From: Massilia timonae CCUG 45783
GTDB lineage: Bacteria > Pseudomonadota > Gammaproteobacteria > Burkholderiales > Burkholderiaceae_D
Assembly: GCF_000315425.1 (NCBI RefSeq)
Contig: NZ_JH992922.1
Span: 1,013,922 to 1,077,921, forward strand
DNA length: 64,000 nt
Direction: 5' to 3'
The notes beneath the pieces were generated by a model that worked only from the letters and a program-made list of their open reading frames with translations, was not told where the DNA came from and searched no databases. The position numbers and the translations under genes are program-made. Below, one piece after another: positions 8,392 to 22,793 of the stretch (its first letter is position 1; every line of letters begins with the position of its first letter).

Positions 8392-8438
8392 GGAAAACGC
8401 CGGCATTGGCTACAATGCGCATTTACACAGGATTAGTC

Positions 8439-8705
8439 ATGGACCCGAAAGAATCCCTCATAGAATACCCGAGCGAATTCCCGATCAAGGTGATGGGCGC
8501 GACCCATATCGATTTCGCTCCCACCATCGTCGCGCTAGTGACCCAGCTGGATCCGACTTTCCATGAAGGCAAGCTGGAAACCCGTCCTTCGGCCAAGGGC
8601 AACTACACCGGCCTGACCGTCACCGTCACCGCCACCAGCCGCGAGATGCTGGACGAGGTGTACCGCACCCTGTCGACCCACCCGATGGTCAAGATGGTCC
8701 TGTAA
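8439..8705 (+). CDS. ybeD: DUF493 family protein YbeD
   Basis: An 88-residue protein starting MDPKESLIEYPSEFPIKVMG and ending STHPMVKMVL, the conserved ends of the YbeD/DUF493 family, a small ferredoxin-like-fold protein. In many Beta- and Gammaproteobacteria it lies directly upstream of lipB and lipA, as it does here apart from the intron between them. A role in lipoate metabolism has been suggested from this linkage only. Confidence 0.92.
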   Translation: MDPKESLIEYPSEFPIKVMGATHIDFAPTIVALVTQLDPTFHEGKLETRPSAKGNYTGLTVTVTATSREMLDEVYRTLSTHPMVKMVL

Positions 8706-8728
8706 GGGCGGCTTGCCATCTCGTCAAC

Positions 8729-8760
8729 GGGGCAGGCTGCCTGTTCGGCAGGCACGCCCC
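8729..8760 (+). terminator. Two-tier hairpin after ybeD, no T-run
   Basis: Outer arms GGGGC/GCCCC (8729-8733 and 8756-8760) and inner arms GCCTG/CAGGC (8739-8743 and 8749-8753) enclose a TTCGG loop, 23 bases after the ybeD stop. There is no T-tract, so factor-independent termination would be weak. It may also be a transcript-stability element. It lies 28 bases before the intron's 5' end. Confidence 0.35.
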
Positions 8761-8772
8761 ATCGTGCTGGCT

Positions 8773-8778
8773 TATAAT
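8773..8778 (+). promoter_or_regulatory. Perfect TATAAT -10 box just before the intron, presumed lipB promoter
   Basis: TATAAT in the context GGCTTATAATGACGG. No good -35 is found 16-18 bases upstream. Transcription would begin near 8785, only a few bases before the intron's first base at 8789. In an intron-free ancestor this box would lie directly ahead of lipB. The promoter role is inferred from the perfect hexamer and its position. Confidence 0.45.
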
Positions 8779-9875
8779 GACGGGGCTGGTGCGACCTGCG
8801 GTCGCTTATGTCGCTCTGCGGCAATCATTTGAAGCTGTACCTTATCTTGCAAGCCACTCGGTAAGTCCTTGATTCAGTTAGACTAAATTTCCTGGACTGG
8901 CATTTAAAAACCGTGGGCTCCCTAATTGCGTCTGCAATTCTCGGGGAAACAACTCAAACAAACACCGACAAACGCAATCCTCGGCAGGGGCGTTTCCACG
9001 CCTGAGCACGTAGAATCTGCTAACGTTAGGGGCCTAATTGGGCTATGTTTGTTGTCTCAACGCAACGATTCATCGAAATCTAAGCAAATTTCTCAACCTG
9101 AGAATCAAAGAGACGGACCCGCTCGGGTCTTGCTGTCAAAAGGTACGGCGGTAAGCGCAAACTCTGCGATATCTTGTCACACCCGAGGGATCGGGCCCGT
9201 GACCAGGTGTACGACCACCTGACACCTACTCGAACATGCCAGCCTGGCAACGGGTTGGTTTGAAGCTTCGACGACGATGTCCCCCGTTTAACACGGTGCA
9301 TTCCACACGCGAGTGAGGGTGCAGAAACTGCTAGCAGCAATGCGGTGGAGGGGCTAGGTGAGGCTGCATGGGTAATGTAATGTGAACTGACGCTTGAACC
9401 CTCGTAAACATTGACGGGCCTAAGCTGCTGCTGGCCCGAACCAAACGGTATGTGGTTAGTTGTCTCCGTCAGCCTAGGGGATACGTCGTTACTAAACCAC
9501 CGGGGGAAAGTCAGACCCTAAACAGTCATGTGCGGCAGGCTATGCCGTGCTGGTATCACAGGGAACAGGGTAAGCCCGATTCGCTGCCTATCCCAGAGCA
9601 CCGGGATAGGCAAGTAACTCGACGGGAGAAGATCCTAAGAGAAGCCCTTGGCGAAGCGGGTATGGGAGGATGGAAAAAGCGAACGCCGGCTTGTAATGGG
9701 ACGGATAGGGATTCGAGATTTGTCCCGACGTGAAAGCGTGCAGACTTCCATCTGGTGCAACAGTCGTCAAACGACTACATAGACAAGTAGATTCCACAAC
9801 CGCCCCAAGGGACGCAGCCTCCCTTCGGGGACGGTTTGCGTCCTCGTCGGGCAACTACTACGACGAGGTTCAGCA

Positions 9876-11576
9876 ATGAGAGTAATCGAAGACAACTTCG
9901 GTTCTGCGTCCTCGCACCCTCCTACCGAATGGACCACCATTGATTGGCGGCGCGTTCAAAAGAGTGTGAAGGTCATGCAGATCCGTCTAACGAAGGCTAC
10001 ACAGGAAGGCGACTGGCGCAGGGTGAAATCCCTGCAGCGGTGGCTGACCCGCTCGTTCAGCGCGAAGGCGTTGGCGGTTAAACGAGTGACTGAGAATCAA
10101 GGTAAACGTACTTCAGGTGTGGACCGGCAGCTATGGGAAACACCGTCGCAGAAGTATGCGGCAATTGCGCAGTTGCAGAAACGGCGGTATCGACCCCGGC
10201 CTCTCCGGAGGGTCTATATCCCCAAAGCCAATGGGAAAGAACGCCCGCTGGGTATTCCAACCATGAGAGACCGAGCGATGCAGGCGCTTTTCCTGTTCGC
10301 GCTCGATCCGGTGCTGGAGACGGTAAGCGACCCGAACTCGTATGGGTTCAGGAAGAACCGCTCGACGGCAGACGCAATGGGCCAAATCTTCCTCCAGACA
10401 TGCCGGGGAAACTCGGCGCAATGGGTGCTGGACGCGGACATTGAGGGCTTTTTCGACAACATCAACCACGAATGGATGATCAGACATGTCTGCATGGACA
10501 AGACGATCCTTCGGAAATGGCTGAAAGCCGGGGTAGTCGACCGGGCGCAATTGTTGGCCACCACAGCAGGAACGCCGCAGGGTGGCATCATCAGCCCTGC
10601 ACTAGCAAATTGGACGCTGAATGGACTGGAAACCGAACTGACGAAGTACCTTGGTACACGAGTCGGTCGGTCGAAGGTCGAAAAGCTGAAAGTCGGGGTC
10701 GTACGATATGCGGACGATTTTGTGATCACAGGGGTCTCGCAAGAGCTTCTGGAAAACGAGATCCGGCCTTGGGTGGAAGAGTTCCTAGCAATACGGGGAC
10801 TACGACTGTCTCAAGCCAAAACCAAAGTCATACACATCGACAAAGGCTTTGACTTCCTCGGGTGGAACTTCCGGAAATACAACGGAAAACTACTCATCAA
10901 GCCAAGTAAGAAAAACGTTAAAACGTTCTACGAAAAGCTGAGGAAAGTCATCGGCGATAACCTCGCAAGTAAGCATGAGAACCTGATTCGACTGCTGAAC
11001 CCGATACTACGGGGCTGGGCGCAGTATCACAGTCCCGTGGTGGCCAAAGCAACGTTCTCGCTCGTGGAGTCGCTGATGTTTTGGCGGCTCACGAGGTGGG
11101 CCAAGAGGAGGCACCCAAGGATGAAACTCAGCAAAATCCGCAAGAAGTACTGGCGGACAGTAGGAGATCGGAACTGGGTGTTTGCGGCAGTCGTGCGCAA
11201 AAAGGATGGCACGAAAGGGTTACTGGAGCTGTACTCGCTTCCGGGTACCCCGATCGAACGCCACAGGAAAATCAAGGGGGAATACAACCCTTATGACCCA
11301 CAATGGGAAGTGTATGGCGAAACCCTTCGTCAGGAGCGGATGCTGAAGAGCATGCGCTACCGAAAGGAATGGGCGAAGTTGTATTCCGACCAACGAGGCC
11401 TGTGCGCGTTATGCGGGCAGGAGATGGACATGTATACCGGATGGCATGACCACCACATAGAGTACCGTGTGGCCGGTGGCAGCAATGCCCTTGGAAATCG
11501 CGTATTATTGCACCCTAATTGCCACTCGCAAGTGCATAGCCTTGGATTACAAATTGTTAAGCCGGTTCCTGAATAG
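9876..11576 (+). CDS. ltrA: Group II intron reverse transcriptase/maturase with HNH endonuclease
   Basis: A 566-residue multifunctional intron protein. The RT N-terminal domain (about 15-85) is followed by fingers/palm with IPKANGKERPLGIPT, the TPQGGIISP block at 233-241 and the catalytic YADD at 278-281. The maturase X domain follows (about 340-430). The C-terminal HNH nuclease has C510-C513, D525-H526-H527 and HPNCH at 546-550. All active-site motifs are intact and the frame is uninterrupted, so the intron should be capable of splicing and retrohoming. GAGG lies 8 bases before the ATG. Base use is less GC-rich than in the neighbours, in keeping with a mobile origin. Confidence 0.95.
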   Translation: MRVIEDNFGSASSHPPTEWTTIDWRRVQKSVKVMQIRLTKATQEGDWRRVKSLQRWLTRSFSAKALAVKRVTENQGKRTSGVDRQLWETPSQKYAAIAQLQKRRYRPRPLRRVYIPKANGKERPLGIPTMRDRAMQALFLFALDPVLETVSDPNSYGFRKNRSTADAMGQIFLQTCRGNSAQWVLDADIEGFFDNINHEWMIRHVCMDKTILRKWLKAGVVDRAQLLATTAGTPQGGIISPALANWTLNGLETELTKYLGTRVGRSKVEKLKVGVVRYADDFVITGVSQELLENEIRPWVEEFLAIRGLRLSQAKTKVIHIDKGFDFLGWNFRKYNGKLLIKPSKKNVKTFYEKLRKVIGDNLASKHENLIRLLNPILRGWAQYHSPVVAKATFSLVESLMFWRLTRWAKRRHPRMKLSKIRKKYWRTVGDRNWVFAAVVRKKDGTKGLLELYSLPGTPIERHRKIKGEYNPYDPQWEVYGETLRQERMLKSMRYRKEWAKLYSDQRGLCALCGQEMDMYTGWHDHHIEYRVAGGSNALGNRVLLHPNCHSQVHSLGLQIVKPVPE

Positions 11577-11594
11577 GAACTTATTGTTGTGCTT

Positions 11595-11675
11595 GAGCCG
11601 TGTGCTATGAAAGTAGCATGCACGGTTCTTAGGGGGGAGGGGTTCTGGTAACAGACCCTTCCTACCCTCCTCCAT
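11595..11675 (+). ncRNA. Group II intron domains V and VI
   Basis: Domain V is the hairpin from GAGCCG (11595) to GGTTCT (11629), with a GAAA tetraloop and the catalytic AGC near its base. Domain VI follows as a G-rich strand (11632-11647) folding back on a C-rich strand ending in CTCCTCC. An unpaired A in CCTACC is a candidate branch point. The intron ends AT, after which the exon continues ACTATGG. Confidence 0.88.
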
Positions 11676-11705
11676 ACTATGGCCCGATGCCTCGCCCCCG
11701 ATTCC

Positions 11706-12401
11706 ATGTCTTCGATCCACCCCGCCGCGCCGCTCGTCCGTGAACTCGGCCGCGCCGACTACGAACCCACCTTCGCCGCCATGCGCGCCTTCACCGACGC
11801 GCGCACGCCCGAGACCCGGGACGAATTGTGGATCGTCGAGCACCCGCCCGTGTTCACGCTGGGCCTGGGCGCCGATCCGGGCCACGTGCTGGCGCCGCAC
11901 GGCGTGCCGGTGGTCCAGACCGACCGCGGCGGCGAGGTCACTTACCACGGCCCCGGCCAGGTCGTGATCTACCTGTTGATGGACTTGCGCCGCAACAAGC
12001 CGGGCGGCAAGCTGTATGCGCGCCAGTTCGTGGAAAAAATCGAACAGGCGGTCATCGATGTATTAGGGGCGTATAATCTGGCCGGTGAGCGCATCGCCGG
12101 CGCGCCCGGCATCTATATCGCCGAGGGCCCGCGCAAGGGCGCCAAGATCGCCGCGCTCGGCCTCAAGGTGCGCGGCAACGGCTGCACCTATCACGGCGTA
12201 TCGCTGAACGTGGGCATGGACCTGGCCCCGTTTACCTGGATCAACCCGTGCGGCTATTCGGGATTGGCCACGGTCGACATGCGCACCATGGGCGTCGAGG
12301 CGCCGCTGGCCGATGTCCAGCAGGCGCTGGCCAGGGCCCTGACCGGGCATCTCGGCCAGTCGCCCGTGCCAGACAGTGTCCCAACCGAACAAACCAACTG
12401 A
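11706..12401 (+). CDS. lipB: Lipoyl(octanoyl) transferase LipB
   Basis: Transfers octanoyl groups from acyl-carrier protein to lipoyl domains in the cytoplasm, the first step of lipoate assembly. The 231 residues show [12 protein letters not shown], the catalytic Lys in [14 protein letters not shown] and the acyl-accepting Cys in WINPCGYSG. The ATG at 11706 matches the family start; another in-frame ATG at 11679 lies 3 bases after the intron. Neither has a good Shine-Dalgarno in the unspliced sequence. lipA follows after 24 bases. The group II intron separates the gene from its presumed promoter. Confidence 0.95.
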
Positions 12402-12425: not shown

Positions 12426-13418
12426 ATGACTTCCGAAATCGACACCGGCATCGCCTCCGCATCCGCCTACAACGCCAGCGAAAAGCAGAAAGGCGCCAGC
12501 AAGACGTCGCGCATCCCGATCAAGATCGTGCCGATCGCGGACGTCGAGCGCCTGAAAAAGCCGGACTGGATCCGCGTCAAGGCCGCCACCGCCTCGTCGC
12601 GCTTCTACGAAATCAAGGACATCCTGCGCGCCAACAAGCTGGTGACGGTGTGCGAGGAAGCCAGCTGCCCGAACATCGGCGAATGTTTCGGCAAGGGCAC
12701 CGCGACCTTCATGATCATGGGCGACAAGTGCACCCGCCGCTGCCCGTTCTGCGACGTCGGCCACGGCCGCCCGGATCCGCTGGATGTGAATGAGCCGGGC
12801 AACCTGGCCAAGACCATCGCCGACCTGCGCCTGTCCTACGTCGTGATCACTTCGGTCGACCGCGACGACCTGCGCGACGGCGGCGCCGGCCACTTCGTCG
12901 AGTGCATCCAGAAGACCCGCGCGCTGTCGCCCAACACCAAGATCGAAGTGCTGGTGCCGGATTTCCGCGGCCGCCTCGAAAAGGCATTGAACATCTTCGC
13001 CGACGGCCTGCCGGACGTGATGAACCACAACCTGGAAACCGTGCCGCGCCTGTACAAGGAAGCGCGTCCTGGCGCCGACTACAAGCACTCGCTGGTCCTG
13101 CTGCGCGACTTCAAGAAGATGTACCCGAGCGCGGTCACCAAGTCGGGCCTGATGGTCGGCCTGGGCGAGACCGACGAAGAGATCCTCGAAGTCATGCGCG
13201 ACATGCGCGAGCACGACATCGACATGCTGACCATCGGCCAGTACCTGGCGCCGACCAGTTCGCACCTGCCGGTGCGCCGCTACGTGCATCCTGATGTCTT
13301 CAAGATGTTCGAAGAAAAGGCGTATGAGATGGGCTTCGTGCACGCCGCCGTGGGCGCGATGGTGCGTTCGTCGTACCACGCCGACCAGCAGGCGCACGAG
13401 GCGGGCGTCGCCGCCTAA
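12426..13418 (+). CDS. lipA: Lipoyl synthase LipA
   Basis: A radical-SAM enzyme inserting two sulfurs into octanoyl-lipoyl domains. In its 330 residues the auxiliary cluster ligands are C76, C81 and C87 ([12 protein letters not shown]), the radical-SAM ligands are C102, C106 and C109 (CTRRCPFC), and the C-terminal RSSYHA supplies the conserved serine. It is co-transcribed with lipB. Its last four bases overlap the stop of the convergent AraC-type gene. Confidence 0.97.
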
Positions 13419-22716: not shown

Positions 22717-22793
22717 CGGAGTGTAGCGCAGCCCGGTAGCGCACCTGGTTTGGGACCAGGGGGTCCAAGGTTCGAATCCTTGTACTCCGACCA
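22717..22793 (+). tRNA. tRNA-Pro (anticodon UGG)
   Basis: A 77-base cloverleaf. The acceptor CGGAGTG pairs with TACTCCG, and the D arm includes AGCCCGGTAGC. The anticodon stem CCTGG/CCAGG has loop TTTGGGA with TGG at 22751-22753. The T arm carries GGTTCGAATCC, and discriminator A plus encoded CCA (22791-22793) end the gene. UGG reads most proline codons. Confidence 0.97.

Follow-up and report, generated by a model that had tools for sequence, protein, structure and literature searches.

Introduction

Three target specificities are attributed to bacterial group II introns in the relevant passages of a 2015 review, namely homing sites, terminators and attC sites (PMC4424553). A 2022 survey measured the distance of introns to terminators, and the word "promoter" is absent from its main text (PMC8919778). 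Here, we describe a group II intron inserted in front of lipB in Massilia timonae CCUG 45783, within a stretch of 64,000 nucleotides (nt) of contig NZ_JH992922.1 that is referred to below as the window and whose numbering is used throughout. The intron begins 10 nt past a predicted promoter −10 box, and comparison with its relatives makes it probable that it belongs to a retromobile lineage, found here in Burkholderiales, with the core of a sigma70-type promoter as its DNA target. A lineage that inserts directly behind promoters would add a fourth to the target specificities listed above.

Literature searches, which covered few subscription papers, brought up no description of group II introns that target promoters. 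Waldern and co-workers are said to have carried out a genomic-neighbourhood study in 2020. Homing-site introns of the Ll.LtrB type encode a protein with reverse transcriptase (RT), maturase and endonuclease functions and have one conserved site. An earlier note, made from the sequence of the window alone, had viewed the lipB intron as a lone odd insertion; the insertion is real, and the comparison shows it to be one case of a systematic specificity.

Position of the introns relative to the −10 box

The first set of relatives comprised 41 loci (designated by L numbers, the window included) with an RT at least 61% identical to that of the lipB intron. Thirty-six of these could be scored, and five (L113, L096, L108, L033 and L035) had no placeable 5′ end. 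L062-L070 duplicate, over a shorter length, places that were scored under later numbers, L075-L090 (partial or distant matches) were left unscored, and L117 and L038, with an identical protein and contigs of equal length, apparently lie on the same contig; the 36 introns represent 24 non-redundant sites. A box was required to match TATAAT in at least five of six positions, with T1, A2 and T6 obligatory, and to lie 9-12 nt before intron nucleotide 1. Such a box is present at 20 of the 24 sites, whereas 2000 shuffle runs gave 0.39 such sites on average and never more than 4. Among 26 further loci below 58% RT identity, 12 had no chosen 5′ end and 14 were scored, with a box in only one of them (L118, 56% identical, box at 9 nt). 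L118 was set aside from the outgroups because the tree groups it with the promoter lineage, which leaves a box in 0/13; the branch holding the 36 introns and L118 has a support of 91 in this quick tree, under the starred level. Two more relatives (55%, from outside the order) have no box either.

A prediction of the box was written down before most introns of a held-out set were gathered, and in this set alone the 5′ end was placed by a rule fixed beforehand. It comprised 52 introns from one genus search and two further family searches; four of them had been gathered before the prediction was written, with their 5′ flanks unread at that point, and the 3′ edge of one intron (L185, from genome G022) had already been seen. 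Fifty-one were readable, as L196 ran off its contig. All 51 have TAnnnT at 9-12 nt (34 at 10, 10 at 11, 5 at 12 and 2 at 9), and 39 of the boxes match TATAAT in at least five of six positions; L194 and L195, at 57-58% identity, have weak boxes at 9 nt. At the new non-redundant sites that are not homologous to earlier ones, TAnnnT occurs in 29/29 (shuffles: mean 1.1, maximum 6) and a box of at least 5/6 in 22/29 (shuffles: mean 0.2, maximum 3). L197 is counted in both 51/51 and 29/29 despite a doubtful 5′ end and an unfitting guide (EBS2, see below). The part of the prediction that concerned start codons was checked for 10 chosen loci only. Overall, the position of the box goes beyond chance.

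Reading of the box by the intron guides

All intron columns were scanned for covariation with target positions −1 to −21 in an alignment of 30 of the 36 first-set introns. The top signal joins exon-binding site 1 (EBS1; CAGCCT, 9470-9475) to positions −1 to −6, with 97% of cells paired over the 30 introns. The next separate signal joins EBS2 (ACATTG, 9408-9413) to −9 to −14, which are the final four box positions and two more. At lipB, the corresponding intron-binding sites are IBS1 (GGGCTG, 8783-8788), the final six bases of the 5′ exon, and IBS2 (TAATGA, 8775-8780), which overlaps the −10 box and forms four Watson-Crick pairs and one G.U pair with EBS2; T8773 and A8774, at −16 and −15, lie outside the guide-RNA pairing. 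EBS3 (9508), likewise found by covariation, is the partner of the first 3′-exon base (11671), and this pairing is present in 27/28 first-set and 50/50 held-out introns.

The guides follow the box both in sequence and in position. The EBS2 base opposite −14 is G in 24 of the 30 aligned introns, and TATAAT and TACAAT are read alike because this G pairs with T and with C; at sites with the boxes TATCAT, TATGAT, TATTAT and TATCCT, EBS2 is in most cases altered to match. With a box spacing of 9, 11 or 12 nt, the register that suits EBS2 best moves equally, so that it fits the box in 28/30 first-set introns and in 50/51 held-out ones, including 16 of the 17 with a spacing other than 10. For the held-out set the register was taken from alignment columns instead of a regular-expression search, which found EBS2 in 32/51 introns and agreed in 27. 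The guides are diverse, with 55 distinct EBS1 and 36 distinct EBS2 sequences among 81 introns (30 first-set and 51 held-out).

When the register is set by EBS2 alone, the 55 non-redundant sites have T at −16 in 55/55, A at −15 in 53/55 and T at −11 in 53/55. T-16 and A-15 are thus near-invariant yet unpaired by the guide. The proteins of EcI5 and TeI4h read A-15, and that of TeI4h also C-16, according to the sections of PMC2882425 that treat these introns; reading by the protein is therefore the simplest account of T-16 and A-15. Most scored introns carry 300-480 nt of extra, poorly conserved RNA near the 5′ end (8810-9200 in the window). It was rejected as a strict targeting device, as L105 sits at a promoter site with no such extra and L040 and L109 carry it elsewhere.

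Nature of the target sites

The gene next downstream of the intron matched an NCBIfam family for 18 of the 19 first-set proteins tested, several of them below the curated cut-off, for example lptD, amgK, an FKBP gene (here called slpA) and a BamE-like gene. The first-set genes include lptD, amgK, argH, ubiE, rimO, pmbA, dapA, argF, pyrG, ribF, secB and lptA. All 10 proteins chosen in the held-out set matched as well, some of them cut short by the fetched stretch, and guaB, psd, secA, lepA, erpA, rpiA, argC and zapD are among the genes. A tRNA-Leu gene comes next in three loci, two of which are probably one contig, and L039 has its tRNA-Leu site in common with L037. At 17 of the 24 non-redundant first-set sites an NCBIfam-matched gene starts 5-78 nt after the intron, and in L102 and L104 an open reading frame (ORF) of more than 300 amino acids (aa), of unassigned family, starts at 16 and 30 nt. 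A gene or tRNA follows the intron at 20 of the 23 readable first-set sites, compared with 21/64 for the motif alone; L107, L126 and L116 are not clear in this tally, and the contig of L093 ends too early for it to be read.

A natural test of promoters in both directions is offered by the divergent amgK/lptD region. It has been entered by introns on both strands (L095 and L097), each lying 10 nt past a box on its own strand, and in the intergenic sequence the −10 boxes of the two strands overlap (CCCTTATTATATGGG). The L095 and L097 regions align as reverse complements of each other.

Sites that are free of the intron in relatives tell whether box and spacing are kept there. For slpA this is so in 18 of 20 fetched loci, the exceptions being L165, which carries another intron there, and L172, which aligned with an offset of four bases. 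For ubiE it is so in 10 of the 12 loci that were fetched; of the other two, L179 is the copy with the intron, and L182 has no box.

Several observations weigh against the promoter core as the target. Twelve of the 51 held-out boxes match TATAAT in only four of six positions. The 5′ ends of the first set were hand-picked among GTGCG candidates while the flanks were visible, and that set has its exceptions: L107 is decayed and has no box where one is expected, L091 has CATAAT at 12 nt, the boxes of L126 and L115 are only 4/6 matches, and no clear gene lies behind L126 and L116. There is no enrichment of a −35 element at intron sites, and a −35 element as part of the target was rejected on this count; as a genome yardstick, −10-like sites upstream of genes show no −35 enrichment either. 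In this GC-rich genome TA(T/C)AAT is itself enriched upstream of genes (21/64 sites against 517/10,500 random positions, with crude calls of 305 genes in 464 kb), and reading of the sequence alone therefore gives part of the association with promoters. Finally, the authors of PMC2882425, in the portion that bears on this point, allow for RNA reading of some bases upstream of IBS2.

One of these exceptions, L107, shares both its genome (G684) and its EBS1 guide with L097. With its broken protein frame and a site that lacks the box, L107 looks like an ectopic move.

Rfam models were run on 20 held-out loci. In L233 (3365-3586) and L236 (705-803) matches to Mn2+ and ZTP riboswitches, respectively, begin no more than a few bases from where the intron ends and overlap the match to intron domains 5 and 6 (D5/D6) by 9 and 2 bases. 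In these two loci the ribozyme is placed between promoter and aptamer.

The lipB intron and its empty sites

All features of the locus are on the forward strand. The −10 box TATAAT of the predicted lipB promoter (8773-8778) and the 5′ end of the intron at 8789 (GTGCG, which fits GUGYG) are present as the earlier note had placed them. The 3′ end was fixed with intron-free relatives. Two of them (L004 and L003) read TTATAATGACGGGGCTG-TCCATACTATGG at the lipB junction, and therefore the 3′ exon starts at 11671 and the intron is the 2,882 nt from 8789 to 11670. Several blastn alignments of related introns extend to intron nucleotides 2880-2882 and then stop; the shared 3′ ends of the relatives were found by motif search and so give no independent support. 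The empty sites and the EBS3 pairing led us to reject the end at 11675 proposed in the earlier note, which is five bases off, and its junction GGGGCTG-ACTATGG was not found.

lipB was detected in 97 other genomes, and 29 lipB loci were fetched from relatives. In 25 of them TATAAT is followed by 10 nt that end in GGGCTG or a near variant and are joined directly to the lipB leader; in the other four the DUF493 gene is followed directly by lipB, with no such promoter. None of the 29 has the intron at this position. The comparison that the earlier note had suggested thus upholds the box and the GGGCTG flank (kept in 25/29) and overturns the 3′ junction. The empty sites also support two of its statements, namely that the intron separates lipB from its promoter, and that the leader remaining after splicing would be only a few dozen bases long (about 4 + 35 nt, counted from a predicted transcription start near 8785). 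The intron could conceivably act as a control point for lipoate synthesis, as that note proposed. What that note overlooked is that, with such a start, only about 4 nt of the 5′ exon would be transcribed; IBS2, which overlaps the box, therefore could not help the splicing of that transcript.

By all structural features tested, the lipB element is a IIB-like group II intron, with what is probably a new target specificity. The ribozyme core matches Rfam group-II-D1D4-7 (RF02012) at 9203-9353 over its full length with 104.9 bits. The intron-encoded protein of 566 aa (9876-11576) has an intact reading frame with RT, maturase (X) and HNH endonuclease domains (Pfam RVT_N, RVT_1, GIIM and HNH; TIGR04416, 374.1 bits), which bears out the intact RT and HNH motifs of the earlier note. 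Domain 5 occupies 11595-11628 and domain 6 occupies 11631-11670, with a bulged A at 11664, the seventh base from the end, as the candidate branch point. The D5/D6 region as a whole (11593-11670) is a full-length match to RF00029 with 65.2 bits, and its fold has a z-score of −6.19. In the 6.1-Mb genome the sole match to the intron is the lipB copy.

The 3′ exon (11671-11705) is the lipB leader, as delimited by intron-free relatives. It is followed by lipB (octanoyltransferase, 11706-12401), whose ATG at 11706 lines up with the lipB starts of relatives, as the earlier note had it (a further in-frame ATG lies at 11679), and by lipA (lipoyl synthase, 12426-13418). Upstream lies a gene of the DUF493/YbeD family (8421-8705, exact start uncertain; NCBIfam PRK02047 on 8421-8702). 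A promoter and terminator scan of 8600-11760, on both strands, gave two promoter-like and four terminator-like matches (1.3 and 3.1 on average in shuffled sequence), and none of the terminator-like ones lay in 8600-8789. The box at 8773 is absent from this simple scan because the scan demands a −35 hexamer. Elsewhere in the window, a tRNA gene lies at 22717-22790.

One relative was met in an unusual form. L237 (CP075775.1, 1-2837) is a 2,837-bp circular record labelled as a Pseudomonas aeruginosa "plasmid" that consists of exactly one intron (RT 63.4% identical), closed on itself head to tail from first base to last. A DNA circle of the intron, a tandem insertion and an artefact of assembly could each account for it.

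Proposed mechanism and alternatives

Comparison shows introns of this lineage nearly always lying 9-12 nt, mostly 10, past a putative −10 box of the form TAnnnT. It likewise shows the predicted pairings of EBS1 with −1 to −6, of EBS3 with +1, and of EBS2, in register with the box, with its last four bases and two more. In the mechanism we propose, T-16 and A-15 would be read by the protein of the ribonucleoprotein (RNP), as A-15 is by the proteins of studied IIB introns, and the other target bases by its RNA. The intron would reverse splice into the sense strand around transcript position +4/+5. The host promoter would be taken over by the intron yet left intact. If the start is 7 nt past the box, the transcript would consist of about 4 nt of exon and then the intron; splicing would restore a nearly native mRNA with a short leader, and the intron could be tolerated in front of essential genes. 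Read-through from upstream could supply longer 5′ exons. On the predicted start, lipB expression would depend on splicing or on read-through of the intron. The match between EBS2 and the box is probably best explained by DNA targeting, not by splicing, because the transcript of the promoter itself excludes the −10 box.

In its full form, the proposal is that promoter homing is an evolved fourth specificity: the RNP would read the −10 box, perhaps as a melted non-template strand, and insert at about +4, the intron would be the first thing transcribed from the promoters of essential genes and would remove itself again by splicing, with a 5′ exon only about four bases long, and the guides would be re-matched for each promoter. 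We regard this full form as evenly balanced between true and false.

The alternative that survives best is transcription-coupled insertion, in which the RNP invades the non-template strand melted by RNA polymerase and the open promoter, not its sequence, is the target. RNA polymerase melts about −11 to +3, and if the start is 7 nt past the box, the guide-read positions −14 to −1 together with A-15 nearly coincide with this melted strand. T-16, A-15 and T-11 correspond to the most conserved positions of −10 boxes, and T-11 stays T in 53/55 sites though other positions read by EBS2 vary. The excess of genes or tRNAs behind readable first-set sites (20/23, against 21/64 for the motif alone) also fits, but selection against gene damage could produce the same excess. 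Sigma would moreover cover the same strand, and an HNH protein with full EBS1-3 pairing permits ordinary melting of the target. The proteins of introns studied in PMC2882425 read A-15, in the passages concerned, without any promoter. Overall, we hold open-promoter targeting to be rather unlikely.

Survivor bias appears less likely again. Here, introns would insert widely, and only copies right behind promoters would persist, being expressed and breaking no gene. The sites with a named gene do lie just upstream of that gene, and insertion close to a promoter does spare coding sequence. The narrow spacing of 9-12 nt is left unexplained, however, as is the tracking by EBS2 of a box that lies outside the promoter's own transcript, and introns of other clades persist elsewhere, 0/13 of them behind a box, the two further relatives being likewise without one.

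A bias towards A+T-rich sequence that melts easily on the upstream side of IBS2, which would hit promoters by chance, has a precedent in TeI4c, reported in the pertinent part of PMC2882425 to select A or T at −13 to −16; it is very improbable here, since the lineage shows specific bases, T-16 in 55/55 sites and A-15 in 53/55, and not A or T. An ordinary homing intron, with the lipB position a one-off and the box a coincidence, would suit the single copy in this genome, but it is already contradicted by the box common to 51/51 held-out introns and 20/24 first-set sites and can hardly be credited.

If a retroelement is indeed addressed to the −10 box, it would illustrate how a parasite can live in front of essential genes, transcribed wherever it is inserted, and if the intron splices, the cost to the host would be small. 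Several questions are thereby made testable, among them splicing with a four-base 5′ exon that lacks IBS2, help from the open promoter in reverse splicing, and the adaptation of the guides. There could also be practical use, as a tool, for a retargetable element with insertion sites at the start of transcription.

Comparison with known group II introns

Like Ll.LtrB, the lipB lineage encodes an RT-maturase-endonuclease protein, and target-primed reverse transcription is to be expected. Ll.LtrB homes to one site, whereas 81 introns of the lipB lineage have 55 distinct EBS1 sequences. A single-site homing intron was rejected as an identity for the lipB element, the close relatives of which sit at many unrelated genes.

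Group IIC introns, which insert after terminators or at attC sites as described in the relevant portions of PMC4424553 and PMC8919778, resemble the lipB lineage in that they target a class of regulatory element and spare coding sequence. They have no endonuclease in the account of the former source (PMC4424553), whereas the lipB lineage protein has an HNH domain. The element also differs, being in the lipB lineage the −10 box of a promoter, with EBS1, EBS2 and EBS3 pairings. Assignment of the lipB intron to group IIC was rejected on the presence of HNH and of a −10 box instead of a terminator upstream. Group IIC introns are thought to be seldom transcribed, in the view given in passages of PMC8919778, whereas members of the lipB lineage would be transcribed by the host promoter.

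The closest likeness in target reading is to EcI5 and the TeI4/TeI3 introns of T. elongatus, which, in the sections of PMC2882425 devoted to their targets, combine EBS-IBS pairing with a few protein-read 5′-distal bases, A-15 among them. No promoter specificity for these introns was found in those sections (PMC2882425). Unlike them, the lipB lineage has T-16 and A-15 near-fixed and directs EBS2 to the rest of the box, at many unrelated genes.

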